From Chloroflexota bacterium (GTDB taxonomy: Bacteria > Chloroflexota > Ktedonobacteria > Ktedonobacterales > Ktedonobacteraceae): a stretch of DNA of 19,012 bases. The position numbers were made by a program, and so were the translations under genes. Below, in pieces: positions 2,601 to 18,390 of the stretch; position 1 is the stretch's first letter, and the number at the start of each line of letters is the position of its first letter. A model generated the notes under the pieces. The model searched no databases and was not told where the DNA came from. It saw nothing but the letters and a program-made list of their open reading frames with translations. The stretch is taken from assembly GCA_005879655.1 (NCBI GenBank), contig VBJK01000079.1, positions 18,373 to 37,384 of the forward strand, given 5' to 3'.

Positions 2601-2639
2601 TCTTTGATTGCCTTCGGGTGATCTCAAAGGCGGTTGCTT

Positions 2640-3719
2640 ATGATTAGCGTTTCTATTATTGGTATAACAGGCTATACAGCTTTAGAATTACTACGCTTAT
2701 TAGTCCAACACCCGCAGTTTGTGGTGAAATCAGTCACTGCTCGTAGTGCAGTAGGGATGCGCCTGGATGAAATTTATCCGCAACTTCGTGCGGTGGCATA
2801 TAACGAGACAACACCAGCCGTCAACCCCGCTCTCATCGTTACGGAGGAACCAGCACGGACGGACCTGGCGTTTGTTTGCTTGCCACATGCGGCAGCGGCT
2901 GAAAGCGTGGTGAAATTAGTGGAGCAAGGCAGCAAGGTGGTTGATCTGTCTGCTGATTTCCGTTTGCGTGATGTCAAAACCTATGAAAAATGGTATAACC
3001 ATACGCATCCCGCTCCTGCTCTCTTGGAGACTGCCGTCTACGGTTTATGCGAGCGGTATCGCGATAAAATACAGGGCGCTACCCTGGTCGCTAATCCCGG
3101 CTGTCATGTCACTACATCACTCTTGGCTTTGCTTCCCGCAGTACAAGCAGGTATCATTGAGCCAGATATTATTATTGACACAAAGACAGGTGTAAGCGGG
3201 GCCGGTCGTACTCCAAAGCTGACTTCGCTCTACGCTGAAGTTAGTGAAGATGTCCAAGCCTATAGTCTCGCAGGACACCGTCATTTGCCAGAGATTACAC
3301 AGGAACTGGAAGCCGCCGCTACTGCTAGTGGCCATGAGACCGCTACTGGATTGCGCGTGACTTTTATTCCTCATCTCATCCCGATGACGCGTGGGCTACT
3401 GGCTACATGTTATGCAAACTTAAAACAGGAGATGACAGCTATCCCAACTAATGAAGATGTATATGATCTCTATAAGCGCTATTATACTAATGAGCCGTTC
3501 GTGCATGTGGTGAATCAGCCACCACATACCAAGTGGACGTATGGCACCAATCATTGTTTTGTGTATCCAATAGTTGATGTGCGAACAAAGCGTTTCATTG
3601 TAATCTCTTGTTTGGATAACCTGGTCAAAGGCGCTTCAGGCCAAGCAATACAAAATGCTAATAGACTCTATGGATTACCAGAAAGTACTGGACTAGCAAG
3701 TATAGGCGTTAATCCATAG
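2640..3719 (+). CDS. argC: N-acetyl-gamma-glutamyl-phosphate reductase
   Basis: Third enzyme of arginine synthesis: NADPH-dependent reduction of N-acetylglutamyl phosphate to N-acetylglutamate semialdehyde in the cytoplasm. The 359-residue protein has the N-terminal nucleotide loop GITGYTALEL (residues 8-17), the catalytic Cys155 in ANPGCHVTT, the conserved GVSGAGR loop, and the HRHLPEI segment with the active-site His. Length is normal for the short ArgC type. The third Gly of the usual G-x-x-G-x-x-G loop is Ala here, a mild deviation. I chose ATG 2640, with AAAGG at 2626-2630 (9-nt spacing), over an in-frame TTG at 2634 that would leave only 3 nt. It is the first gene after the T-box terminator. 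The following gap to argB is 60 nt. Confidence 0.96.
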   Translation: MISVSIIGITGYTALELLRLLVQHPQFVVKSVTARSAVGMRLDEIYPQLRAVAYNETTPAVNPALIVTEEPARTDLAFVCLPHAAAAESVVKLVEQGSKVVDLSADFRLRDVKTYEKWYNHTHPAPALLETAVYGLCERYRDKIQGATLVANPGCHVTTSLLALLPAVQAGIIEPDIIIDTKTGVSGAGRTPKLTSLYAEVSEDVQAYSLAGHRHLPEITQELEAAATASGHETATGLRVTFIPHLIPMTRGLLATCYANLKQEMTAIPTNEDVYDLYKRYYTNEPFVHVVNQPPHTKWTYGTNHCFVYPIVDVRTKRFIVISCLDNLVKGASGQAIQNANRLYGLPESTGLASIGVNP

Positions 3720-3779: not shown

Positions 3780-4649
3780 ATGGCAATTACCATTTCAGAC
3801 ACACAGGAACGCGAGATCGTTAGTAACCATCATCTCATTGCGCGTGTACTAGGTGAAGCGCTGACTTACATCGAGCTGTTAAAGGGCAAGATCCTCGTGA
3901 TAAAATTGGGTGGAAGTACACTTGAGCATCAGCGAGGTGTCTTACAGGATATCATCTGGCTACACACGCTAGGGGCGTTTCCCGTCCTAGTTCATGGGGG
4001 AGGCCCATACATTAACGAGTGGTTAACCAAACTCAATTTACCGACGCGTTTCATCGATGGTCTACGCGTCACCGACGCCCCGACACTGGAAGTCGTACGC
4101 ATGGTGTTACTAGGACAACTCAATCAAGGGCTGGTCTTGATGGCATCTCAGATGGGCGGTAAGGCGGTTGGCCTGAGTGGCACGGATGGTGGTATGGTAC
4201 AGGCACATATCGCAGATGAGCGTCTAGGCTTTGTGGGTGAGATCGATCACGTCGATCCTACAGCAGTGCTAGCGCTTATCAACCAGGGCTATATTCCGAT
4301 TATCGCCCCTCTTGGCGAGGGACCGGGTGGTACGTGTCTGAATATCAATGCTGATCTGGTTGCTTCTCATCTTGCTGGAGCACTTAATGCGGAAAAGCTC
4401 ATCTTTTTGAGTAATGTTGCTGGTATCCGTCGCTCAGATGGTTCGATGATTTCAGAACTGCACGAAACGGAGGCCAGAAAACTTATTGCAGAGGGGGTCA
4501 TCACTGGTGGTATGATCCCGAAGGTGTCTGCTTGCCTGGAGGCTCTAGCAACGGTTTTACGCGTCCACATTGTGGATGGTGGCGAGGAACATGTCCTGTT
4601 ACGCGAACTGTTCACCGATCAGGGTGCGGGCACGATGATTACTAAGTAA
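3780..4649 (+). CDS. argB: Acetylglutamate kinase
   Basis: Phosphorylates N-acetylglutamate with ATP, the step before ArgC. The 289 residues carry the amino-acid-kinase features: Lys42 in IKLGGS, the glycine loop VHGGGP (71-76), the substrate-binding GLRVTD (94-99), GLSGTDGGM, LNINADLVA (187-195, Mg/ATP-site Asn and Asp), and Lys248 in GGMIPK. About 30 residues precede the first strand, with the pattern ARVLGEALTYIELLKGK; arginine-sensitive hexameric acetylglutamate kinases have a similar N-terminal helix, so feedback inhibition by arginine is likely (inference). GAGGAG at 3763-3768 lies 11 nt before the ATG. It sits in the operon 60 nt after argC and 43 nt before the HisRS-like gene. No argJ, argD or argF is seen here. 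Confidence 0.96.
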   Translation: MAITISDTQEREIVSNHHLIARVLGEALTYIELLKGKILVIKLGGSTLEHQRGVLQDIIWLHTLGAFPVLVHGGGPYINEWLTKLNLPTRFIDGLRVTDAPTLEVVRMVLLGQLNQGLVLMASQMGGKAVGLSGTDGGMVQAHIADERLGFVGEIDHVDPTAVLALINQGYIPIIAPLGEGPGGTCLNINADLVASHLAGALNAEKLIFLSNVAGIRRSDGSMISELHETEARKLIAEGVITGGMIPKVSACLEALATVLRVHIVDGGEEHVLLRELFTDQGAGTMITK

Positions 4650-4692: not shown

Positions 4693-6195
4693 ATGGTAAA
4701 GCGCGTTGAGCGCCTACGGGGGATGCACGATCTTTTGCCGGATGTGCATCAGCAGCAGCGTTGGGTGATAGAAAAGCTTGGCACATTGCTGGAGCAGGCG
4801 GGCTATGCTCGCGTTGATACACCGATTGTTGAGTGTAGCGACCTCTTCCATGCCAGCTTTGGACAGGAGTCGTGGCAGAAGCTCTATGCGTTCCGTTTGC
4901 ATCAGCGCGATCTCTGTCTGCGTCCTGAATATACAGCTTCGATCTGCCGCCTTTACCTCGATCAGTATCAACGGCAAGCGTTGCCACTGCGTTTGCAGTA
5001 TGCAGGCCCGATCTTCCGCTATGAAGCGCCAGGGCGCGGTCGTTATCGACAACATACGCAACTTGGTATAGAACTGTTGGGGGGGCGGGCCACGGCTGCC
5101 GATGCTGAAATAGTACAGCTAGCGTGTGATGTGTTGCGCGAGCTAGCTATTACGCAGTATCGGCTGGAACTTGGACACATCGGGGTTGCCAGTGGCTTTA
5201 TCAATCGTTTGCATCTGGATGATCAAGCGGCATTTCTGCTCCTTAGCTTAATGGAGCAGATCAGCCGCTCTGAAGAGGGGGAACAATTAGCGCAGAAACG
5301 CTTGGAGGCTTTGTATCCCTCTCATGCTGTGCCTGATCTGGCAGCAAGCAATGGCACACATGGCAATAGTACTGAAGCACGCTACATTACATCGTTGCTG
5401 AGCGGGATTAGTATCTCGTTCGGCGACGATGATGCCCGGCGCGAGGTAGTGGAGCGCTTCTTGTGGAAGACAGGACGCAGTGAGCAGCGACGACAGATTT
5501 TACATGCACTAGAGTTTCTGCGCGCACTACATGCTCTTTCTGGTCCGCCACCCGATGTGTTCAGCCACGTCAGCGAGCTGCTTGAGCGCTATCAGCTCGA
5601 TGCCGCACCTCTCACTGAGCTACAGCAATTAGTCACTATTGTTGAGCAGTGTGGTGTGCCTCGCCAGCAGATTCAGCTGAACTTGTCATTAGGACGTGGT
5701 GTGAGCTACTACACGGGTCTGGTATTTGAGATCCATGCGCAAGAGGCAGACGGCTTTGATGCACAACTTTGCGGTGGTGGGCGCTATGACCGCTTAATAC
5801 ATGCTGTGGGTGGTCATCGTGATATGAACGCTTGTGGCTTCGCTTTTGGCGTTGAGCGTCTGCTGACACACATTCCTAGTTCTGACCTGCCCACGCTTGC
5901 TACAACGCAGGCGCTGGTCATACCTGTGACTGAGATGGAAATGCCTTACGCCTTGCAAGTGGCTCGCAGGTTGCGTTCACAAGGAGTACGTACAGAAGTG
6001 GATGTTATTGGTAATGGGGTTGGTGCTGGCTTGAAAGTTGCTGCGAAGAAACAGATTCGCCTGGCACTGATTGTAGGTGAAGACGAACAGCAGAAGAGTG
6101 TGGTGACTGTTCACGACCTGGTGACTGGCGAGGAGCAGGTGGCAAGTGTAGAAACGCTAGTGGATCGTATGTTAGAGAAGGAGCACTGTGCATGA
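4693..6195 (+). CDS. Histidyl-tRNA synthetase family protein (HisS or HisZ-type)
   Basis: A 500-residue class II synthetase-like protein. Motif 1 region RGMHDLLP (9-16), motif 2 FRYEAPGRGRYRQ (108-120) with Gln123 and Glu127 after it, the HisRS signatures RGVSYYTGLVFE (335-346) and CGGGRYD (360-366), and motif 3 GFAFGVERL (382-390) are all present. Residues ~405-495 look like the anticodon-binding domain, which most HisZ regulatory subunits lack. The known histidine-contact residues of HisRS have counterparts (Glu79, Thr81, Arg109, Gln123, Glu127, Arg335, Tyr340). Two usually invariant spots differ: ERP reads EAP in motif 2, and LDYYT reads VSYYT. Its place directly before hisG is that of hisZ in Bacillus-type operons. 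So it may be a second HisRS or an ATP-phosphoribosyltransferase regulator; sequence alone does not settle this. A GAGAGGA site precedes the ATG. Its stop overlaps the hisG start by 4 nt. Confidence 0.85.
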   Translation: MVKRVERLRGMHDLLPDVHQQQRWVIEKLGTLLEQAGYARVDTPIVECSDLFHASFGQESWQKLYAFRLHQRDLCLRPEYTASICRLYLDQYQRQALPLRLQYAGPIFRYEAPGRGRYRQHTQLGIELLGGRATAADAEIVQLACDVLRELAITQYRLELGHIGVASGFINRLHLDDQAAFLLLSLMEQISRSEEGEQLAQKRLEALYPSHAVPDLAASNGTHGNSTEARYITSLLSGISISFGDDDARREVVERFLWKTGRSEQRRQILHALEFLRALHALSGPPPDVFSHVSELLERYQLDAAPLTELQQLVTIVEQCGVPRQQIQLNLSLGRGVSYYTGLVFEIHAQEADGFDAQLCGGGRYDRLIHAVGGHRDMNACGFAFGVERLLTHIPSSDLPTLATTQALVIPVTEMEMPYALQVARRLRSQGVRTEVDVIGNGVGAGLKVAAKKQIRLALIVGEDEQQKSVVTVHDLVTGEEQVASVETLVDRMLEKEHCA

Positions 6196-7289
6196 GTGCA
6201 CATGGAGTAACAGGGAAGGGATGTATTCGCCTGGCATTACCCGGCAAGGGGGCGCTAGAAGCAGCGACTCAGACATTCTTCGCTGAATGTGGGATGAAGG
6301 TCAGCCGCAGTAATCCGCGCCAGTATCTGGCCAGCATTAAGAGTATGCCCGGCCTTGAGGTGGTATTTCAGCGTGTCGCCGATATTCCCTCTCTGGTACA
6401 GAGCGGCGATGCTTTACTGGGTATTACGGGCTATGACATTCTGGGCGAGCATCGTGGGTATGGTGACGAGTATGCGGAAGAGGGCGAGCACGATGATAAT
6501 TTGATGGTGCTGGCACGCGATCTAGGCTTTGGTGCTTGCCGTCTGGTTGTTGCCGTACCGGAGACATGGATCGATGTCAGTACGTGTGCTGACCTCTGGC
6601 ATCTGGCCGGTTACTATAAAACGCACAAGAATCGCGGCCTGCGTATCGCTACCAAATACCCGATCCTGACTGGACAGTTCTTGCGCCATCATAACATTAC
6701 GCACTGCAAAATATTTTCGCCACACGGCGCGCTAGAGGCTGCGCCACTGACTGATACAGCCGATTTAATTGTGGACCTGACCGAGACGGGCACAACGCTA
6801 CGCGAAAACCGGCTCAAGCTGCTGGACGATGGAGTTGTCTTACGCTCTCAGGCTTGTTTAATTGGCAATGCACGGCTGTTGTGTCAAGATCCGCACGCCT
6901 TGCGTCTGACCGAGACGATGCTGGAACTCATGGATGCTCGTCTGCAAGCGCGCAATCGTTCGATGCTCACTGCCTATATACACGGAGAGAGCTTTGAGGC
7001 GGTACAACGTATCTGCTCTAGACTCAATCAGCGTCTCAAATCGATGGTCTCTGGTGTTGAATTACAGGTGCTCACCTCTGAGCGCACGAGTGCCACTGCT
7101 GAGCCAGGTGGCTATACCATCTCTGGTGTAGCCAACGTTGGCGATTCTGCGCCCGAATTGCTGGAAACGGTGGCGGTTTTGCGTAGCGCAGGTGCCACGC
7201 ATATCCATGTGACACCGCTCATTTATCGCTTTACTGAAGAGTCTATTAGTGTACGTGCACTGCGCGAACGATTGAAGAGAATTCATTGA
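6192..7289 (+). CDS. hisG: ATP phosphoribosyltransferase (long form)
   Basis: First step of histidine synthesis: condenses ATP and PRPP to phosphoribosyl-ATP. The 365-residue protein starts its catalytic domain at IRLALPGKG (12-20), continues with ADIPSLVQSGDALLGITGYD (63-82) and RIATKYPILT, and has the PRPP-binding loop ETGTTLREN (198-206). Residues ~259-345 match the layout of the C-terminal regulatory domain of long-form HisG: TISGVANVGDS is followed by a helix and ATHIHVTPLIYRF. This domain allows histidine feedback without HisZ. The protein is some 65-75 residues longer than usual long forms, mainly through extra material in the catalytic domain (around 85-110 and 225-258) and at the C-terminus. 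The start overlaps the upstream stop as ATGA; the stop overlaps the next TTG start by 4 nt, so coupling is probable. Confidence 0.93.
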   Translation: MSAHGVTGKGCIRLALPGKGALEAATQTFFAECGMKVSRSNPRQYLASIKSMPGLEVVFQRVADIPSLVQSGDALLGITGYDILGEHRGYGDEYAEEGEHDDNLMVLARDLGFGACRLVVAVPETWIDVSTCADLWHLAGYYKTHKNRGLRIATKYPILTGQFLRHHNITHCKIFSPHGALEAAPLTDTADLIVDLTETGTTLRENRLKLLDDGVVLRSQACLIGNARLLCQDPHALRLTETMLELMDARLQARNRSMLTAYIHGESFEAVQRICSRLNQRLKSMVSGVELQVLTSERTSATAEPGGYTISGVANVGDSAPELLETVAVLRSAGATHIHVTPLIYRFTEESISVRALRERLKRIH

Positions 7290-9724
7290 GTAATCTGGTT
7301 ATATTCGATCTAGATGGCGTTATTACCGGTGAAGACGCTTATTGGGATACCGCTGGTCTGGTACTTCACGAACTGCTCTATAGCCCACGCTACTGGAATA
7401 TTAAGGCTGCCAGCGTCTACCATCCAGCACAAACCGCAGAGCAGTGTCGCCGCGTGAGCAGAGAGACTTTTCCTGACGCAGTGATTATGAGTCTGAAAGC
7501 GCGCTCTGTGAATTCCAACTGGGATACCTGTTACGCTGGTTTTTGCCTGTATTTACTAGAGCTACTGGCTCTTGTGCCCGATTTTACCTCTTTGTTGCCC
7601 CTGCGGCCAGCGGATGAGGATTGGATTGCTACGTTGCGTCAACAGCTTGCTACCGTGGGTAATATACGGGTTGGCGCTTGCCTGCTCACCTCTTTTGATG
7701 CAGAGGTTTTTCAAGGTGCTAGCGGCTTAGAGTTGCTCCAGCGTTTCAATATCCTGGCGCGTGAGGTTATCGGGCAGCCAGTAGAGGGGATTTTTGCGCG
7801 CAATAGTCCCTCGTGGAAGTTGTGCCAGACCTTATTTCAGGAATGGTATCTTGGTGAGACCTTCTACACCCAGAAATATGGTCATCCGCCAGCGCAGCCA
7901 GGAAAGCCTGGCTGTATTCATTTTGAGCAACCACTTTTGCCGCCTGAACGCATCTGTCAAACGCTTGAGCAATTGCGTGCGCGGGGCTACACCCTTGGTA
8001 TTGCTACCGGTCGGCCCGGCCAGGAAGCGCTTCCACCCCTGCGCAACTATGGCCTGCTCGCTTGTTTTGAGCAGCAGCATATTGTCACCGATACACAGGT
8101 GACACGCGCCGAAGCGAAACTACGCGCGCAAGGCAACACCACCACTCTGCTCAAACCACATCCTTTCCCATTTCTGCTAGCCGCAAACCCCACGTATCAA
8201 CTGGGACAACCTGCACCCTCACGTGGGAGCTTCATCGTCGTTGGTGATACTCCTAGCGACGTGCAGGGAGCACGTGCAGCAGGAGCACTTACTATTGCTG
8301 TCCTGACGGGTGCTCGTACAGCAGAGGCAAAAAGACTATTGGAACAGAGCCAGCCTGATTTTATCGTGCCAGACATCACCCATGTGCCCGCGCTACTTGA
8401 GCACATCGATGACCTTGCTACCATACAACGCCTTCAGTTTAGCGAACTTGAGAAGGCACAATTGTTGCTACAACGCTGGTTCTACCACCATATGAACTTG
8501 CCCACCGAGCAAGTGACCTTGACGCCTAAAGCAGTCTCGCTCAATTCTTTCAATGGGGTGTATCGTGCTGAACAGCAAGAATACTTTTTCAAAACGCATG
8601 TTGAGGAGCAAGGCGTTCTGCAAGAGTATTATCATGCACAGCTCCTCTTGCAGTCAGGTTACAATATTGTCAGGCCATTACGAACATTACATGAAAAAGG
8701 TCAGCAGATGGTGATCTATCCCGTTGTACGCTGGCCAGTCATGTTTGACTTGATGCGTGAAGTTGAGCTGAATAATCCCACTCATGCTAACATTGCTATG
8801 CTCGCCGCCGCTGAAAAACGTGAGTGTGAGCGGCTCATGCACATCTATCAGCAGACTGGCGCACACAGTACCGCCGAAGAACACGCTCAGGCCCCTATCC
8901 ATCAGCTCTTCTGGCATCGACTGACTGGTGAACGCCTCAAGAGTTTTTATGAAGGTAAATCTGTGCTCCTGCCAGCTACAACAGAGCACTCTATCTCTTT
9001 TGAAAAAATCGCTGCTTACCGCTGGCATATTAACGGCACTGCCCAGCAATATACCCTGGGTGAGTTGATCGAGCGAGCGAAGGTGGTGCTCAACCCCCAA
9101 CGGGCCGCTTTCACGGTGATCGGGCATGGAGATGCCCATTTCGGGAATGTATTCTTAGTTGTTTCAAACTCTACAACCGGGTCGGGAAAGGACATTAGCT
9201 CCCGCTCTCTCCCCACAGAGAGACTATACATACCCAATCCTAATGAGTCAAGTGTAAATGTATTAGAAGAGCAACAAAACTACCTGTATTTTGATCCAGC
9301 CTTTGCGGGCCGCCACTGTGTACTGCTCGATATGATTAAGCCTCTTTTCCATAATATCTTCGCTACATGGATGTACTTCCCGCAACAAGTAGCTTCAGGG
9401 TTATCACTGCATGTACACATTGATGACGCAACACAGGCTATTTTTATCGAGCATAATTTCAAGCCTCATCCCGTACGCGAGGCGATCTTACAAACGAAAA
9501 TAGCGTATCTTCTCGATCCGTTGCTTGCTTGGCTAGATGACATTGACGCATTGCCTGATGATTGGCTAGCCATCATGCAGTCGGCGCTGCTCTGTTGTCC
9601 ATTGCTGACGATCAATCTGTTTGATCAGGCGCGTATGCCTGCGGGCATAAGTTGGTTGGGATTGCTTTATGCGGTATATATGGGTAATAATGGGGTGACA
9701 TTCTGGAAGGTAGATTTTGATTAA
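7286..9724 (+). CDS. HAD phosphatase fused to APH/choline-kinase-like kinase
   Basis: An 812-residue two-domain protein. Residues 1-~375 are a haloacid dehalogenase hydrolase: motif I FDLDGVIT (nucleophile Asp8, Asp10), a large cap insert (~15-220), motif II ATGRPG (Thr241), motif III Lys290 in LLKPHP, and motif IV VVGDTPSD (Asp321, Asp325). All catalytic residues are present. Residues ~390-812 resemble aminoglycoside/choline kinases: Lys436 in YFFKTH, the Brenner motif IGHGDAHFGN (612-621, Asp616, Asn621), and Mg-binding Asp670 in YFDPAFAG. The distance between the last two motifs is enlarged by a Ser/Asn-rich insert (~626-665). TTG 7286 is chosen because motif I begins three codons later and it overlaps the hisG stop. 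It occupies the hisD-hisB position of the operon, so a role as histidinol-phosphate phosphatase or other sugar/amino-alcohol phosphate enzyme is possible, but this is inference; motif I is not the HisB-type DRDGT. Substrate unknown. Confidence 0.85.
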   Translation: MSNLVIFDLDGVITGEDAYWDTAGLVLHELLYSPRYWNIKAASVYHPAQTAEQCRRVSRETFPDAVIMSLKARSVNSNWDTCYAGFCLYLLELLALVPDFTSLLPLRPADEDWIATLRQQLATVGNIRVGACLLTSFDAEVFQGASGLELLQRFNILAREVIGQPVEGIFARNSPSWKLCQTLFQEWYLGETFYTQKYGHPPAQPGKPGCIHFEQPLLPPERICQTLEQLRARGYTLGIATGRPGQEALPPLRNYGLLACFEQQHIVTDTQVTRAEAKLRAQGNTTTLLKPHPFPFLLAANPTYQLGQPAPSRGSFIVVGDTPSDVQGARAAGALTIAVLTGARTAEAKRLLEQSQPDFIVPDITHVPALLEHIDDLATIQRLQFSELEKAQLLLQRWFYHHMNLPTEQVTLTPKAVSLNSFNGVYRAEQQEYFFKTHVEEQGVLQEYYHAQLLLQSGYNIVRPLRTLHEKGQQMVIYPVVRWPVMFDLMREVELNNPTHANIAMLAAAEKRECERLMHIYQQTGAHSTAEEHAQAPIHQLFWHRLTGERLKSFYEGKSVLLPATTEHSISFEKIAAYRWHINGTAQQYTLGELIERAKVVLNPQRAAFTVIGHGDAHFGNVFLVVSNSTTGSGKDISSRSLPTERLYIPNPNESSVNVLEEQQNYLYFDPAFAGRHCVLLDMIKPLFHNIFATWMYFPQQVASGLSLHVHIDDATQAIFIEHNFKPHPVREAILQTKIAYLLDPLLAWLDDIDALPDDWLAIMQSALLCCPLLTINLFDQARMPAGISWLGLLYAVYMGNNGVTFWKVDFD

Positions 9725-10335
9725 TGATTGCGATAATCGATTACGGTGCAGGCAACATTCGTAGCATTGCCAAAGCGCTGGAGCACGTTGGTGCGCAAGT
9801 ACAGGTGACGGATGATCCTGCTGTGGTCAGGCAAGCGCAAGCTGTGGTCTTGCCTGGCGTAGGTTCTGGCGGCTCAGCGATGGCGCGTATAACGGAGCGT
9901 AGTTTAGACGACGCCATTCGTGAAGCTACGCGCCAGGGGAAACCGTTCCTGGGGATCTGCCTGGGCATGCAATTACTGGCCGACCATCATGCGGAGGGAG
10001 AGGTAGATGGCTTACAGCTCTTTCGCGGTGAGGTACGGCGCATTCCTCATGGCCCTAAGATCCCGCATATGGGCTGGAACCAAGTGCAACAGCTCCATGC
10101 CAACCTGCCCATCTTTGCCGATATTCCTGCTGACGCTTATTTTTACTTTGCCCACTCCTACTATGTGGAGCCGCAGGATCACCAGGGAGTTGCCGCAGTG
10201 ACAGATTATGGCTCGCCATATTGTAGTGTCATTGCAACGCAGCAAGTCTGGGGTACACAGTTCCATCCTGAAAAGAGTGGTGCTATTGGCTTACAAATTT
10301 TGAAGAATTTCGTAAGGTGGATTAAGGTAGTATGA
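9724..10335 (+). CDS. hisH: Imidazole glycerol phosphate synthase, glutaminase subunit
   Basis: Class I glutamine amidotransferase that supplies ammonia to HisF. The 203 residues show IDYGAGNIRSI at the start, the oxyanion loop region PGVGSGG, the nucleophile Cys79 in GICLGMQLL, PHMGWNQ, YFAHSYYVEP, and the His181/Glu183 pair in FHPEKSG. Length is normal. The ATG shares one base with the stop of the fusion gene (TAATG), and the 3' end overlaps hisA as ATGA, so the subunits are translated in close coupling with their neighbours. Confidence 0.97.
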   Translation: MIAIIDYGAGNIRSIAKALEHVGAQVQVTDDPAVVRQAQAVVLPGVGSGGSAMARITERSLDDAIREATRQGKPFLGICLGMQLLADHHAEGEVDGLQLFRGEVRRIPHGPKIPHMGWNQVQQLHANLPIFADIPADAYFYFAHSYYVEPQDHQGVAAVTDYGSPYCSVIATQQVWGTQFHPEKSGAIGLQILKNFVRWIKVV

Positions 10336-11045
10336 TTATTTTGCCCGCTATTGATATCAAGGATGGTCTCTGTGTACGACTCTACCAGGGCGATTATGGC
10401 AAAGTCACCACCTATGGTGCTGATCCTGCCGGAGTCGCTTTACGCTGGCAGAACGCCGGGGCAAGCTGGCTACACGTGGTAGATCTTGATGGAGCAGCAC
10501 AAGGAAAACCTGTCAATACTGAGCTGATCGCGCGTATACGCAAGGAGACGAGGCTACATATCCAGGTCGGTGGAGGGATGCGCTCACCAGAACATATCGC
10601 GCAGGTCCTTGACCTTGGTGTTGACCGCGTAATCCTGGGCACAGTCGCACTGACGGATCGTGCACTCTTAGAGGATGCACTGGCACGCTGGGGAGAGCGC
10701 ATCGTGGTAGGCTTAGATGCGCGCAACGGTCTTGTAGCTATTGCTGGTTGGCATAAAACATCAAAGATACAGGCCACCACCTTAGCCGCAGAACTCTCTG
10801 AGCTAGGCGTACAGCGTTTTGTCTACACCGACATTGCTCGTGATGGTGCGCTGACTGGTCCTAACCTGCCCGCACTAGTCGAGATGCAGAAAGCCACTAC
10901 GCGACCACTCATAGCCTCCGGGGGAGTAAGTTCACTTGCAGACCTGCATGCCCTTGCAGCATTGAAAGTGGAGGGTGCGATTGTGGGGAAGGCAATATAC
11001 ACCGGCAATGTGGATCTGGCCACTGCGCTTCATGAAATAGCATAA
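10332..11045 (+). CDS. hisA: ProFAR isomerase (HisA)
   Basis: Phosphoribosylformimino-5-aminoimidazole carboxamide ribotide isomerase, a half-barrel-repeat TIM barrel that carries out the Amadori rearrangement before HisF. In 237 residues it has catalytic Asp8 in AIDIKDG, the first phosphate loop VGGGMRS (79-85), Asp129 in [19 protein letters not shown] (166-178) and the second phosphate loop ASGGV. No insert or loss is visible. It overlaps hisH by 4 nt and is followed after 25 nt by hisF. A bifunctional PriA role (also acting in tryptophan synthesis) cannot be excluded by eye but nothing suggests it. Confidence 0.96.
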
Positions 11046-11070: not shown

Positions 11071-11838
11071 ATGTTAACCAAACGAATTATTCCCTGCCTC
11101 GATGTAGCCAAGGGTCGTGTTGTGAAGGGCATAAATTTCCTCAACCTGCGCGATGCGGGCGATCCGGTCGAACTGGCCTCGTATTATAATGATGAAGGGG
11201 CTGATGAGGTCGTTTTCCTGGACATCACAGCATCATATGAAAACCGGGCGACCATGCTCGACGTGGTAAGGCGTACTGCTGAGCAGGTCTTTATTCCTGT
11301 CACTGTAGGTGGTGGCATTCGTACCGTAGAAGATATCCGTGCCACACTAGGGGCAGGAGCTGATAAAACATCGCTCAACACTGCTGCGGTACAAAACCCC
11401 GATCTGTTGCGCGCGGGAGCCGAGCAGTTTGGCGCACAGTGTATTGTGCTAGCCATCGACGCTCGCTCAAATGCCGCCATGCCCAGTGGTTACGAAGTCT
11501 TTATACACGGTGGACGTACTCCCACTGGCATAGACGTTGTAGCATGGGCGCAACGCGGTGTACAGCTAGGTGCGGGCGAAATTCTGTTGACGAGCATGGA
11601 CCGTGATGGCACGAAACAGGGCTATGACCTCGCTCTGAATGCGACAATATCTGCCGCTGTCACCGTACCAGTAATCGCTTCTGGTGGCGTGGGAACGTTA
11701 GAGCACCTCTATGATGGTCTGACAACTGGTAACGCTGATGCCGTATTAGCAGCCTCAATCTTTCATTTTGGAGAGTTTCGCGTGTGTGATGTGAAACAGT
11801 ATTTGCAGGCAAGAGGGGTTGTGGTGCGTCCCTGCTAA
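11071..11838 (+). CDS. hisF: Imidazole glycerol phosphate synthase, cyclase subunit
   Basis: TIM-barrel partner of HisH; turns PRFAR plus ammonia into imidazole-glycerol phosphate and AICAR. The 255 residues are canonical: [17 protein letters not shown] with Asp11, VTVGGGIRT (78-84) as phosphate loop, Asp130 in [21 protein letters not shown] and [14 protein letters not shown] at 11053-11058 is the probable ribosome site, spaced 12 nt from ATG. It lies in the usual order after hisA and 23 nt before hisI. Confidence 0.97.
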
Positions 11839-11861: not shown

Positions 11862-12830
11862 ATGGAATTACCAATTAAATTTGACCAACAGGGCCTAATA
11901 CCAGCCATTATTCAGGATGATAGCACCGAAGAAGTGCTCATGGTCGCCTTTATGAACCAGGAAGCATTACAACGTACACGTGAGACCGGCAATACTTATT
12001 TCTTCAGCCGTTCCCGTAACAAGATTTGGCATAAAGGCGAGCAATCGGGCAACGTGCAAGAAGTACGCGCTATTTTTGTGAATTGCGAGGAGAATAGCTT
12101 GCTCATTCGTGTACGGCAGCACGGCGATGCCGCTTGCCATGACGGCTATCACAGCTGTTACTATCGCCGCCTACTGCCTGACAATAGCTATCAAACGGTT
12201 GCAGAGCGGATATTTGATCCAGCTGTAGTGTATAAAACTGCCGCACATAGCCAAGCTATTCCTGTGAAAAACGAGACGAATATTGCCGTGAAGCCTACCC
12301 GGCAAGAGCTAGTAGAGAAGTTACAATCGGTATTCAGCCAGCTCTATGATGTCTATCTTTATTTGCGCGACCACGATCTAAGCCAACTATCGAATACCTC
12401 CCGTCTGTTGCAAGTGCCGAACCAGAGCTATCTTCTCAAGCGCTTAGCCGATGAGCTACAAGAGCTAGCTGATGTGCAAAGCGGCCAGCATGTTCACACT
12501 GGACTGCAAGCGGATACAGTGCTGGAGGGGAGCCAAGTAGGCTACTGGCTGTTTCTGTTAGCTGCCAGTTGTGATATTGACTATGCTGATTTTATGCCGC
12601 ACTGTGCTGTATTCAGTGGCTATAATGAGCACCCTAACGAAGTGGATGTGATCGAGTGGAGGAAGGAGTGCCTTCGCCTGTCGTCTAATGATGAGCCTGT
12701 TATTATTGCACGTGGCATACAGTTGGGTTTTGCGTTTGTTGGTTGGGCTTGTGCTGAAGCTGGAGTGAGTCCGTTGGGGCCGGGGGAGTATGATTTAGGG
12801 CAGATGAGGGTGAAGGGATTGGTGAAGTGA
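11862..12830 (+). CDS. hisI: Phosphoribosyl-AMP cyclohydrolase with a long divergent C-terminal domain
   Basis: Residues 1-~105 are the HisI fold: AFMNQEALQRTRETGNTYFF, SRSRNKIWHKGEQSG, and ACHDGYHSCYY. The three zinc Cys are kept (75, 92, 99). The Mg-binding DCDxD motif, however, reads NCEEN (74-78), so all three acidic positions are changed (Asn, Glu, Asn). The remaining ~215 residues are far longer than a normal HisE (about 90). A helix with RLADELQELADV (194-205) recalls MazG/HisE-type pyrophosphohydrolases, but the second acidic motif is not obvious, so a HisE identity is tentative. If both domains are active it would be a HisIE-type protein carrying steps 2 and 3 of the pathway. Alternatively the HisI part has lost activity. 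Last gene of the operon; a candidate terminator overlaps its 3' end. Confidence 0.85.
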   Translation: MELPIKFDQQGLIPAIIQDDSTEEVLMVAFMNQEALQRTRETGNTYFFSRSRNKIWHKGEQSGNVQEVRAIFVNCEENSLLIRVRQHGDAACHDGYHSCYYRRLLPDNSYQTVAERIFDPAVVYKTAAHSQAIPVKNETNIAVKPTRQELVEKLQSVFSQLYDVYLYLRDHDLSQLSNTSRLLQVPNQSYLLKRLADELQELADVQSGQHVHTGLQADTVLEGSQVGYWLFLLAASCDIDYADFMPHCAVFSGYNEHPNEVDVIEWRKECLRLSSNDEPVIIARGIQLGFAFVGWACAEAGVSPLGPGEYDLGQMRVKGLVK

Positions 12831-12871: not shown

Positions 12872-13870
12872 TCACGAAGAGAACAGAATGCCAATAAGAT
12901 AAGCCACATACATTGCAATAAGGATATAACCGATACTGCGCCCAACGTACTTGACGCGCGTCAGAAATAATACCTCCAGAAATGCAAAACACATCACTGG
13001 CAAAGCGATGAAGAGCAATTTTAGATCTAATGTCACGGGATGGATTACGGCAGCCAGGCCAAGAGTTACTAACAGATTATAAACAAACGAGCCGATAATC
13101 CCTCCCATCAATATATCCGACCGTTGCTTGCGCGCAGCAGTGATTGCCAGCGCAATGATTTCGGCTCCCGTACCCAAGGCAACGATCGTCGCTCCAATCA
13201 CCCCTTGGCCCAGGCCAAGTGAGTTAGCTACTTGCAGTGCATTATCCACAACCAGAGGACCACCGACGGTCATAGCAAGCAGTCCACCCAACGTCCAAGC
13301 AATGAGACGCCAGTTACTAAGCAGTACTATCCATCCCCCCGTCTTTGCCCGTGTGTCATTATCATCATCATCATCGTCGTCATCATCGTCATCGTCATCA
13401 TCATCGCTATGCGCCTCTAACACCAGAGCAGGTTCTATGCGGAAGAGTAGCCAGAGATAGACTACAAAGATTGCCAATAGGCAGAGACCCATCCACCGAT
13501 TCACCGTGCCAAACGAGAGAAAAACAATTGGACAAACGGTGACTCCAGCCGCCAGGAGAGCCTGCCGTGCGAGCTGTCGATTGTGGTGATGTGGTGCCAG
13601 TAGTAGCCCGATGCCTAGCGCCAGTGTCGTAACCGTAATATTTGTTCCCAGTATATTGCCAGTAGCGAGTGTAGGCATCCCACGGAAGGCGGCAATTGCT
13701 GCTGTTAGCATCTCTTCAGGTTCCAGTCCGAGCAAAATAATGCTGATCAGCAGAGTGCTGACATGCAACATTTTTGCCAGGTCAGTCACACCATCGACAA
13801 AGCGGTCTGCCCCCCACATTAAGAGGATAATGCCTAGAAGTAACAATCCACAAGCAATGAGCAATGTCAT
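12872..13870 (-). CDS. CaCA-family sodium/calcium (cation) exchanger-like membrane protein
   Basis: A 332-residue membrane protein with about ten hydrophobic segments in two halves, separated by a hydrophilic loop. The halves carry the alpha repeats: LGLEPEEMLTAAIAAFRG then ATGNILGTNI in the first, ALGTGAEIIALAITAARK then GGIIGSFVYNLL in the second. This is the K+-dependent/independent exchanger fold (YrbG-like). The usual GTSLPE is altered in both repeats and the second GN/GSN has become GG/GSF, so cation choice is uncertain. The central loop holds 15 consecutive Asp and then Asn-Asp, coded by a GAT/GAC run at 13360-13404. Start ATG 13870 is preferred to the upstream in-frame ATG at 13957 because GGAGAG sits 6-7 nt before it and the extra residues are not family-like. 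Confidence 0.85.
   Translation of the reverse strand: MTLLIACGLLLLGIILLMWGADRFVDGVTDLAKMLHVSTLLISIILLGLEPEEMLTAAIAAFRGMPTLATGNILGTNITVTTLALGIGLLLAPHHHNRQLARQALLAAGVTVCPIVFLSFGTVNRWMGLCLLAIFVVYLWLLFRIEPALVLEAHSDDDDDDDDDDDDDDDNDTRAKTGGWIVLLSNWRLIAWTLGGLLAMTVGGPLVVDNALQVANSLGLGQGVIGATIVALGTGAEIIALAITAARKQRSDILMGGIIGSFVYNLLVTLGLAAVIHPVTLDLKLLFIALPVMCFAFLEVLFLTRVKYVGRSIGYILIAMYVAYLIGILFSS
13358..13405 (-). repeat. GAT/GAC trinucleotide tract coding poly-Asp
   Basis: On the minus strand, 15 consecutive GAT or GAC codons, then AAT GAC. Mixed GAT and GAC use suggests the tract is not entirely fresh slippage. It lies in the hydrophilic loop between the two halves of the exchanger. Confidence 0.9.
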
Positions 13871-13922
13871 TAGTATCTCTCCAGAGGCGTGCAGACATTG
13901 TAGAGAGAAGTTCTCCCCACTT

Positions 13923-13928
13923 ATTATA
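13923..13928 (-). promoter_or_regulatory. Possible -10 box for the exchanger gene
   Basis: TATAAT on the minus strand about 53 nt upstream of ATG 13870, next to a T-rich stretch. The -35 region is poor, so this is a weak call. Confidence 0.35.
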
Positions 13929-14084
13929 TAAAAAAACACAGTGATATGCCAGAACACGCTGTACTTTTATCGCTAAGTATAGCATGCTGGGAAAGATTTC
14001 TAGAGAATAAGAGCTTTCTATAGTACTATATGCCTGTGGAAATCCTTTAGCTTTGCTATGAAATAATAACCATTAATAAGAATT

Positions 14085-16459: not shown

Positions 16460-16507
16460 ATTAATTGAGAGGTTTTATTTTTGTTTTGTGCATTTTGGAG
16501 TATTTTT

Positions 16508-17488
16508 ATGGCATCTCCTCTAAAGAGAGAAAGAGTTACTCCCTTTATCAAGGCTACAGATCGACGTGATAGCGTGCGTCGGTCATCAAAATTGCCTTTG
16601 ACGCAACGCATGTTTTGGATGCCGGGCGTTGAAGGCGTGAAGGAAGACGAAAAAGCCGTCGCTGGCATCTCAGCAGAGATAGTCGTAGACAGCGGATCTC
16701 TGGAGCTAGTGGTCGTTGCACATCCTTCTGATCAATTGGCAAAGGAGTTGGTAGATCTAGCGCGTGAGCAGAAGCGCTCTGCCATGGTGCTTGACGTTTT
16801 TGCAGCAGCACAACTTTTCTCGATCTCTATAGACTCTGCTCAAGCGATGATTGAGCCTGATCTTCCTCTTTTTCTCCGTGTACCAGCGCCGCCCATGCTC
16901 CGTACTAGCTTTGACGAGGAATTTCTCTTTAATGAGAGCCTGGCAACACTCTGGTCTGTGGCAGCTTTATGCAAATCGCCTGTCATTAATCGACCAACTA
17001 GTGATAGTTTTGGAGGGCGCGTTTCCCATTCGGCAGCGTTAACAGAACTCAGAGCGGGTATAAATACAACGTCGCTAGAGATATTTTCCAGTAGTGTAGC
17101 GCCTGCACCTGTAATAGATGTAGTAAGACAATGGTATGTGCAAAACATTATGACACAGCAAACCACGGTTTGGCCCGCGCTACCTGAAGGTCACGGTCCC
17201 TATTGTGCCCGCTGGTCCGATCCCGAGCCAGTATACGAAGTTGTGGTAGTACTGGGCATAAAAGCATGGCGCTGTACGTCAGTAGAACTCGGCTACTTAG
17301 AATTGAATGAGCAGAGTATTGCTCTGGTGCAGCGCTTGGGCCTTATCTTTGCTACTGTCACCTGGGTGATCGCACATGATCTTAGCAGTGCTACTGCTGT
17401 CAATATCGAGCCATTTCCCTTGATGGAGCAAGTGAAATACGTATGGCCTGAGTTGGGGCCAGCATTGTTAGAGGAATTGTTCTCATGA
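16508..17488 (+). CDS. Degenerate ATP-grasp-like protein, paralogue of the next gene
   Basis: A 326-residue protein of no family I can name directly. Residues 1-~64 are a basic, Arg/Lys-rich lead-in. From about 65 it can be laid over the next gene's product: VINRPTSDSFGGRVS against VVNRPDAHCSNAAKP, LTELRAGINTTSLEIFSS against EYVLQCQGFNVPASLTSS, VYEVVVVLGIKAW against ADVRAHVVGEDVH, and FATVTWV...AVNIEPFP against LLVGWDF...CLEANPMP. The central ATP-binding stretch is shorter, no counterpart of the ATP Lys is seen, and the Mg-site Glu-x-Asn reads Asn-x-Glu (299-301). I infer a catalytically altered or dead ATP-grasp fold, perhaps a partner or substrate-holding subunit. ATG 16508 follows TTGGAG; an in-frame TTG at 16481 is less likely. 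The stop overlaps the next ATG by 4 nt. Confidence 0.7.
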   Translation: MASPLKRERVTPFIKATDRRDSVRRSSKLPLTQRMFWMPGVEGVKEDEKAVAGISAEIVVDSGSLELVVVAHPSDQLAKELVDLAREQKRSAMVLDVFAAAQLFSISIDSAQAMIEPDLPLFLRVPAPPMLRTSFDEEFLFNESLATLWSVAALCKSPVINRPTSDSFGGRVSHSAALTELRAGINTTSLEIFSSSVAPAPVIDVVRQWYVQNIMTQQTTVWPALPEGHGPYCARWSDPEPVYEVVVVLGIKAWRCTSVELGYLELNEQSIALVQRLGLIFATVTWVIAHDLSSATAVNIEPFPLMEQVKYVWPELGPALLEELFS

Positions 17489-18390
17489 TCTATGCTATTG
17501 GACTTGGTACTGATCGTACTTTGCGCTATACAATTTCTGAAGCTATGAAACGCGGTATTGAAGTAAATATCATTGATCTACGAGCAGCAGTAATAGGAGA
17601 ATGGCGTCTTGCGCTGCCGGATGATGGAGGAAGTTTTCTTACATTAGCGGGGAAAACATGTTCACTTGATCCGCAAGCCTCTTATTTCTGTCGGATTGTC
17701 GATCTTTCGATGGTGCAGACAGACCTTGAGTTGGCGGCGCGCTGGCGTAACCTTGTTGTCAGTCTGGCAGCGTGGTTAGAGCACATCCCTGGCACAGTTG
17801 TCAATCGTCCAGATGCTCATTGCAGTAACGCTGCAAAGCCTTTACACGAGTATGTGTTGCAGTGTCAAGGCTTTAATGTTCCCGCGAGCCTTACTAGCTC
17901 TGATTCCTCATGTTTAGCTGCTTTTGCAGGTGCTGGACCCACGATAGTCAAAACTGTGTCTGGTGTCCGTGCTAATAGTCGGTTAGTTGTTGGTGATGAA
18001 TTCAACGATTTTATAGCGGCTCAAGGTCCTGTGCATCTCCAGAGGTATATAGCAGGTGCTGACGTGCGTGCACATGTGGTAGGCGAGGATGTTCATGCAG
18101 AGTTAATCCAGTCGGTGGCTATAGATTATCGTAATCCGTCCAAGTATGAAGTAGTATTTTCTTCTTGCACCCTGCCAGATGAGCTACAGAAGAAACTTGT
18201 ACGTACTAGCAGAGCGTTTCAGTTACTGCTCGTGGGTTGGGACTTTAAGGTGACTGATGATGGGGTGTACTGGTGCTTGGAGGCAAATCCTATGCCCGGC
18301 TATGATTGGTATGATCGTCGTCTTGGTTATAAGATTACTACATCTTTGCTTGACTTGCTAACAAGTGGAAGTATTTCCACTATAGTTTAA
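17485..18390 (+). CDS. ATP-grasp ligase (RimK/MvdD-like)
   Basis: A 301-residue protein with the plan of ATP-grasp carboxylate-amine ligases that act on peptides or proteins. Seen in order: an N-terminal alpha/beta part, NRPDAHCSNAAKP (107-119), GFNVPASLTSSD (129-140), Lys156 in TIVKTVSG, the hinge LQRYIAGADVRAHVVG (185-200), IDYRN (213-217), Asp253 in GWDFKV, the Mg-site LEANP with Glu266 and Asn268, and W275 with a GYKI tail. RimK and microviridin MvdC/MvdD enzymes share these features; such enzymes activate a carboxylate with ATP and join it to an amine or hydroxyl. The start overlaps the upstream stop as ATGA, so it is coupled to the degenerate paralogue. No precursor peptide gene is found nearby, so the substrate is unknown. 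The GC content and codon use do not stand out. Confidence 0.85.
   Translation: MIYAIGLGTDRTLRYTISEAMKRGIEVNIIDLRAAVIGEWRLALPDDGGSFLTLAGKTCSLDPQASYFCRIVDLSMVQTDLELAARWRNLVVSLAAWLEHIPGTVVNRPDAHCSNAAKPLHEYVLQCQGFNVPASLTSSDSSCLAAFAGAGPTIVKTVSGVRANSRLVVGDEFNDFIAAQGPVHLQRYIAGADVRAHVVGEDVHAELIQSVAIDYRNPSKYEVVFSSCTLPDELQKKLVRTSRAFQLLLVGWDFKVTDDGVYWCLEANPMPGYDWYDRRLGYKITTSLLDLLTSGSISTIV

Follow-up and report, generated by a model that had tools for sequence, protein, structure and literature searches.

We propose that an 812-residue protein encoded in a histidine operon of the class Ktedonobacteria acts as a non-homologous equivalent of bifunctional HisB, in which a kinase-fold half takes the place of imidazoleglycerol-phosphate (IGP) dehydratase (IGPD) and a HAD half probably serves as the histidinol-phosphate phosphatase. 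Comparisons of sequences and gene neighborhoods lead us to assign this reading a probability of roughly 0.7. To our knowledge, IGPD is regarded as the only enzyme that carries out its step, and a kinase-fold IGPD would be its first non-homologous replacement. We also lean toward a broader view, namely that the kinase-fold family is an ATP-dependent IGPD that has been swapped with IGPD at least five times on the Chloroflexota hisF tree and whose fusion to a HAD histidinol-phosphatase constitutes a second, unrelated bifunctional HisB.

The window, i.e., the whole stretch of 19,012 nucleotides that was analyzed, contains the gene order argC argB hisZ/S hisG fusion hisH hisA hisF hisI according to NCBIfam (Table 1), which bears out the operon order proposed in an initial annotation made from the sequence. 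The fusion gene is an intact open reading frame of 812 codons with a TTG start and no internal stops, and its coordinates overlap those of hisG by 4 bases and those of hisH by 1 base, as had been noted for both flanks. Searches yield 451 relatives of the fusion (E<=1e-3); coverage is 86-100% and identity 57-100% among the 120 listed. Because so many proteins match and the locus is conserved, a chance origin of the gene and its locus is excluded. Across the window, a tandem-repeat scan returned two rows that describe one repeat inside an antiporter gene, a tRNA scan found none, and an Rfam scan gave no match.

Table 1. Features of the window, with positions counted from its first nucleotide.
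Feature	Coordinates	Strand	Remarks
argC	2634..3719	+	also upstream in most Ktedonobacteria loci
argB	3780..4649	+	also upstream in most Ktedonobacteria loci
hisZ/hisS-like gene with anticodon-binding domain	4693..6195	+	
hisG	6192..7289	+	NCBIfam
HAD::kinase fusion gene, 812 aa	7286..9724	+	proposed functional counterpart of bifunctional HisB
HAD half, residues 1-375	7286..8410	+	large helical cap, 1QYI-like
kinase half, residues 376-812	8411..9721	+	APH/MTR-kinase fold
low-confidence insert, ~35 residues (about 625-659)	9158..9262	+	window's protein only, among 57 aligned
hisH	9724..10335	+	NCBIfam
hisA	10332..11045	+	NCBIfam
hisF	11071..11838	+	NCBIfam
hisI with C-terminal extension, probably divergent HisE	11862..12830	+	

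The HAD half contains the motifs DLDGV (8-12), TGR (241-243), K290, and GDTPSD (320-325), and Pfam HAD profiles exceed their cut-offs at residues 214-365. Residues D8, D10, T241, K290, D321, and D325 are invariant among 57 aligned sequences, which places this half within the HAD superfamily. It resembles 1QYI both by sequence (residues 5-372, E 4.1e-33) and as the best Foldseek match of the AF2 model (6.4e-20). The kinase half features K436, HGDAHFGN (614-621), D670, and a conserved C770-C771 pair, and H438, H677, and H689 are conserved as well; within a 138-row alignment that includes some genes in repeated copies, K436, H614, G615, D616, N621, and D670 are 0.99-1.00 identical. This half has the two-lobed APH/MTR-kinase fold, with APH(9)-Ia as the best Foldseek match in the AF2 model of the fusion (mean pLDDT 85.9). 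By sequence, the Pfam APH profile PF01636 gave no match to the window's protein at E<=1 and is carried by 3 of the 120 listed relatives, and a PDB sequence search with the kinase profile returned a single match (E 0.11). The fusion matched neither PF00475 (IGPD) at E<=1 nor any NCBIfam IGPD model at E<=0.01. The HAD profiles and the Foldseek folds thus agree with the HAD-APH fusion described initially between hisG and hisH, and the catalytic residues proposed for its two halves (D8, D10, K290, D321, D325, K436, D616, N621, and D670) show no variation among the 57 sequences, including that of the window.

The fusion is present, in one copy each, in 27 of 47 Ktedonobacteria genomes, a count that leaves aside seven weak matches (E 2.5e-7 to 5.7e-4). 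The fusion is followed by hisH in 21 of 23 loci, and one locus among the 23 is a fragment that lies away from his genes. This conservation at the his locus strongly supports the function shared with his genes that the overlaps had suggested. Whole-genome profile searches detected IGPD (hisB) in none of the 27 carriers, and hisD was found in 26 of them outside the operon slot of the fusion. Positive controls for IGPD and hisD were detected in 13 of 14 cases, the exception being Bacillus subtilis, which has both genes and is missing from both lists. The hisD neighborhoods of eight carriers were read by eye, and the whole-genome IGPD searches cover the same genomes. Based on its relatives, the host of the window is expected to possess hisD and to lack IGPD. 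The initial annotation had hisD and hisB replaced by the fusion, which is accurate for the operon slot only; because hisD is present elsewhere, its loss is ruled out. It had also reasoned that a separate, clear histidinol-phosphatase and a hisB/hisD set elsewhere, with homologues of the fusion scattered away from his genes, would argue against its reading: hisD does lie elsewhere, but IGPD was not found in the carriers, and full-length fusions keep to the his locus apart from the exceptions given above. The C-terminal extension of HisI was considered as the missing IGPD and ruled out, since G008 and G009, which encode IGPD, have the extension too.

The histidine prototrophy of the carriers is presumed, and 16 other Ktedonobacteria genomes lack both hisD and an over-cut-off match to hisF. 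These points would suit a scenario in which carriers make no histidine, with the upper his genes devoted to a different product and the kinase modifying either IGP or a compound derived from it. However, hisD, whose enzyme makes histidine itself, is present in nearly all carriers and, as described below, lies beside the kinase in another lineage, which makes this scenario highly improbable.

The kinase also occurs as a stand-alone gene in a second Chloroflexota order. Among 154 genomes of this order, the kinase was found in 65 and IGPD in 66, and none had both. One of the kinase searches scored at most four candidates in each genome and may have missed some kinase-bearing genomes. Neither gene was found in 23 of the 154, of which 13 have hisF, i.e., 13 of the 136 hisF-bearing genomes. 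Matches of ~400 aa at >~52% identity, including P0159, which was modeled, may be pieces of fusions rather than true stand-alone genes. In the genomes searched from two lineages, kinase and IGPD are thus mutually exclusive, and the loss of IGPD is tracked by the kinase half and not by the phosphatase half.

We read 21 kinase loci, of which 20 were hand-picked from the 65 genomes and one is from G259, and 20 IGPD loci hand-picked from the 66 genomes with hisF nearby. The stand-alone kinase directly follows hisD in 19 of the 21 loci; in the other two (L180 and L182), the stretch read contains no his genes. The hisD-kinase pair sits within a block common to many genomes, with SDR/epimerase-like and asd-like genes in 17 and a pheA-like gene in 15 of the 21 loci, so the 19 adjacencies largely represent one inherited arrangement. 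A HAD-half relative was found in one kinase locus only (L168), where the kinase and HAD genes are adjacent. The presence of hisZ in 14 of 21 kinase loci versus 0 of 20 IGPD loci suggests that hisZ too may track the kinase. A hisC query had no match in any locus read from kinase-bearing genomes, and no recognizable lyase partner of the kinase was found in the loci of this lineage. The SDR/epimerase-like gene upstream of hisD was considered as an IGPD substitute and is not favored, as it is missing from two of the 19 hisD-kinase loci (L168 and L183) and from the 23 Ktedonobacteria fusion loci.

On a hisF tree, supported branches force five changes between kinase and IGPD states. The five phylogenetic pairs give a sign-test p of 0.0625, which is the floor for five. 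The tree was built from genomes with exactly one of the two genes, which sets aside the 23 of 154 with neither, and from the second order it samples 28 of the 65 kinase-bearing and 32 of the 66 IGPD-bearing genomes, together with 15 Ktedonobacteria carriers, G008, and G009.

These patterns bear on whether the kinase half has only a side role, such as regulation or metabolite repair, in a fusion that acts as a histidinol-phosphatase while another protein replaces IGPD. The intact HAD motifs, the carriers' want of an over-cut-off histidinol-phosphatase match, and the other block genes that accompany hisD and the kinase are consistent with such a role. However, a kinase that occurs without the HAD half in all but one of the 21 stand-alone loci, beside hisD in 19 of them, and never with IGPD in the 154 genomes argues against it, as does the poor fit of the SDR/epimerase-like gene and the HisI extension as substitutes, and we consider this explanation unlikely. 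The same evidence speaks against the initial suggestion that the kinase half does something else. The joining of a kinase to a phosphatase in a single polypeptide, and the adjacency of kinase and HAD genes in L168, would also fit a longer bypass in which the two act in sequence, with IGP dephosphorylated, dehydrated, and then rephosphorylated or carried on unphosphorylated. That route is very unlikely, since it requires a further dehydratase, which was recognized in no locus, and the stretches read around the other 20 stand-alone kinases hold no relative of the HAD half.

We instead favor direct replacement: the kinase half probably catalyzes the IGP step (step 6) in place of IGPD. If so, phosphorylation and elimination would be the likely chemistry, as with the APH-like lanthipeptide kinases and their lyase partner. 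The kinase half would use ATP to phosphorylate IGP at the hydroxyl whose carbon is bonded to the imidazole ring; expulsion of this phosphate, helped by the ring, would yield an enol, which would convert to imidazole-acetol phosphate. Each histidine made in this way would cost one ATP. Because the kinase of the second lineage is a separate gene with no recognized lyase partner, both half-reactions may share one kinase active site.

The HAD half would then act at step 8, an assignment as histidinol-phosphate phosphatase that we consider probable given the fusion, its position, and the profile searches of carriers. None of the 27 carriers has a HisJ or HisN family match above cut-off, which makes the phosphatase role raised initially plausible, but weaker matches to PHP proteins (up to 71.4 bits, cut-off 90.2) and to the IMPase family (up to 157.2 bits, cut-off 275.15) exist in these genomes and could be histidinol-phosphatases. 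In the fusion itself, HisB-N and histidinol-phosphatase models are absent among the 15 NCBIfam matches at E<=0.01, and no PHP-type or IMPase-type histidinol-phosphatase profile matched (Pfam E<=1, NCBIfam E<=0.01). With a probable histidinol-phosphatase beside an IGPD-replacing kinase, the fusion would be an independently built bifunctional HisB.

If correct, this proposal provides a second, ATP-using solution that accounts for a gap left unexplained in the histidine synthesis of two bacterial lineages, corrects false auxotrophy calls from genomes, gives a function to a kinase-like family that had none, and brings dehydration by phosphorylation and elimination, seen with peptides and acyl-CoAs, into a core pathway of amino-acid synthesis. 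According to PMC10978614, herbicides target IGPD. Searches of open-licence PMC papers brought up nothing to the point on IGPD replacement or on histidine genetics or prototrophy in Ktedonobacteria; among the papers found were PMC6306507 and PMC9413887, the latter on histidine regulation and naming Chloroflexi once.

Several known systems resemble parts of the fusion. The Staphylococcus aureus hypothetical protein 1QYI (Q8NW41) resembles the HAD half in sequence and fold but is a 384-residue chain with no kinase domain. The 5-methylthioribose kinase and the 4-hydroxytryptamine kinase PsiK share ~10% sequence identity with the kinase half, and their products are stable phosphate esters. The APH-like kinases of class V lanthipeptide dehydratases (LxmK and CaoK) carry out the phosphorylation in a phosphorylation-elimination route like that proposed here, but they act on peptides and leave elimination to a partner lyase (CaoY), whereas no such partner was recognized for the kinase half. 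For ACAD10/ACAD11, PMC12440821 describes a kinase domain that forms a phosphate ester ahead of an alkene-containing product, which again parallels our proposal; there, a flavin acyl-CoA dehydrogenase domain, which the fusion lacks, conducts the second step on a lipid substrate.

The proposed functional parallel is the enterobacterial bifunctional HisB (NF003937), which combines a HAD histidinol-phosphatase with IGPD, the latter matching model positions 166-354 of 355. The second domain of the fusion instead has the APH kinase fold and matches no IGPD model, and its HAD domain is 1QYI-like, with a large helical cap and no HisB-N match. Nevertheless, the two proteins share a domain order, with HAD first, as in Escherichia coli HisB, and the dehydratase, or its proposed counterpart, second, and would catalyze the same two reactions of the same pathway.

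In the window, the genes are ordered argC-argB-hisZ/S-hisG-X-hisH-hisA-hisF-hisI. By coordinates, the fusion gene X shares 4 bases with hisG and 1 base with hisH. The closest solved relative of the HAD half by sequence is 1QYI from S. aureus (E 4.1e-33), which is also its top Foldseek match, and the named shorter relatives of this half (30-37% identity) are from Firmicutes, e.g., Dethiobacter, Staphylospora and Salinicoccus. The fold of the kinase half is clear in X and likewise in a 410-aa relative, and a Pfam scan of this half returned no family above cut-off. The HAD and kinase catalytic residues are invariant across 57 aligned sequences; a ~35-residue insert in the kinase half is unique to the window copy and absent from the other 56.

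Features of X and of other genes in the window
Feature	Position	Description
X	7286-9724	single open frame, 812 codons
HAD half of X	residues 1-375	HAD phosphatase, large helical cap
Kinase half of X	residues 376-812	APH/MTR-kinase-type domain
hisZ-position gene	4693-6195	retains anticodon-binding domain
HisI	11862-12830	C-terminal part of ~200 residues
Calcium/sodium antiporter gene	12872-13957 (-)	
Asp-codon run	13356-13406	tandem repeat within the antiporter gene
335-aa protein	16481-18390	no Pfam match; overlaps RimK-type ATP-grasp gene (position covers the two-gene unit)

We found 23 X loci in named genomes, all under Ktedonobacteria names, with class membership verified for six names. hisH lies 3' of X in 21 of these loci. 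The two exceptions are L016, which stops within X, and L021, which holds a fragment of approximately the first 121 residues (10001-10363) with no his genes near. Another fragment, covering the same part of X, occurs in G034 (contig C218, 36211-36573), a genome that also has a full copy. In six X loci (L005, L008, L009, L010, L016 and L019), hisZ and hisG are absent from the fetched stretch and argB is upstream of X, which indicates that X keeps with hisH rather than with hisG. The X of Dictyobacter kobayashii (L019 10001-12315) is split into two frames near residues 412-416, past the HAD half, which reflects either a sequencing error or a genuine split.

Within the class of Ktedonobacter racemifer (G001), X is present in 27 of 47 genomes, a count that excludes seven further, weak matches. 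Imidazoleglycerol-phosphate dehydratase (IGPD; hisB, PF00475) was detected in two of the 47, G008 and G009, neither of which has X. hisF scored above cut-off in these two and in 26 of the 27 carriers (28/47); the sole exception among carriers, G035, is a 3.3-Mb genome whose copy of X lies on a contig of 7.8 kb. hisD was found in 30 genomes, namely 26 carriers (all except G046), G008, G009, G026 and G027. Thus, 25 of the 26 carriers with hisF also have hisD, and none of the 26 has a recognisable enzyme for the step that follows imidazoleglycerol phosphate. Two carrier genomes are complete according to their titles (AP024096 and CP035758; loci L009 in G002 and L020 in G003). In G008, a hisD::IGPD fusion (L087 8827-10791) sits between hisG and hisH, which is the slot of X in carriers. 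Sixteen other genomes of the class (G010-G025) gave no match above cut-off for hisD, IGPD or hisF, and are possibly histidine auxotrophs or incomplete genomes.

As a query, the kinase half drew shorter proteins of ~400-445 residues, with identities down to 41% among the matches listed; some of these could be fragments of the fusion. An 11-row kinase alignment searched against 400 Chloroflexota genomes matched 28, comprising the 27 carriers and G259. In G259, a stand-alone kinase frame shares 4 bases with the hisD end and faces hisG-hisZ. Of the 400 genomes, 283 have IGPD, with none of the 28 kinase bearers among them (hypergeometric 9e-17, kinship ignored). Among the 154 genomes of the order of G259 (the second order), the kinase is present in 65, of which G451, G480 and G533 were counted from pieces alone. 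IGPD is present in 66, and the observed overlap is 0 vs 27.9 expected. The 136 with hisF above cut-off comprise 59 with the kinase only, 64 with IGPD only, none with both and 13 with neither (G421, G423, G443, G444, G453, G454, G457, G458, G465, G478, G493, G516 and G539); these 13 represent either incomplete assemblies or a third solution.

We also examined a hisF tree with 77 rows, 43 of them kinase-bearing and 34 IGPD-bearing, all taken from genomes that carry either the kinase or IGPD but not both. This tree, which is not a species tree, requires six state changes, five of them forced by supported branches; an earlier quick tree forced three. A single clade of kinase bearers was rejected (p-AU 5e-47), and five independent pairs were all opposite in direction (p 0.0625, the floor for five).

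Among 21 kinase loci of the second order (20 hand-picked, plus G259), hisD is immediately upstream of the kinase in 19 and hisG is in the stretch in 15. The hisD-kinase pair lies in a common block with genes named by eye as SDR/epimerase-like and asd-like (17/21 loci), pheA-like (15/21) and HesB-like (14/21), so the 19/21 linkage is largely one inherited arrangement. When eight block genes were used as queries against the Ktedonobacteria X loci, only the kinase, hisG and hisZ recurred. Two stand-alone kinases (L180 10036-11214 and L182 8930-10129) have no his neighbours in the fetched stretch. Of 20 hand-picked IGPD loci from the same order, 16 have hisD within the cluster and 18 have hisC adjoining IGPD, while the remaining two (L202 and L204) start at IGPD; a hisC query found no match in loci from kinase-bearing genomes. 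hisF is downstream on the same strand in 17 IGPD loci, and hisF-hisI is on the opposite strand in L199-L201.

hisZ encodes the regulatory subunit of HisG. It is present in 14 of the 21 kinase loci (L133, L164-L183) vs none of the 20 IGPD loci (L186-L205), which suggests that it may track the kinase too and be associated with the kinase-type pathway; hisZ is not likely to be the dehydratase itself. The window gene at the hisZ position scored 307.6 bits against a hisS cut-off of 286.75 and 261.1 against a hisZ cut-off of 271.65, and could be a genuine HisRS or one with a dual use. The C-terminal part of the window HisI had no Pfam PRA-PH match and looks MazG/HisE-like by eye; extensions of similar kind occur in the IGPD-bearing G008 and G009. 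The 335-aa protein and the RimK-type ATP-grasp gene look like a two-gene unit.

L168 carries, in this order, hisD, the kinase and a separate HAD gene whose product is 35% identical to the HAD half of X, and this locus is a split form of the fusion. Searches of the 27 carriers for the histidinol-phosphatases HisJ (PHP) and HisN gave none above cut-off. Together with fusion to the proposed dehydratase, this result suggests that the HAD half is a histidinol-phosphatase; weaker HisJ and HisN matches in carriers leave room for other such enzymes. As a histidinol-phosphatase, the HAD half would reproduce the layout of E. coli HisB from unrelated parts.
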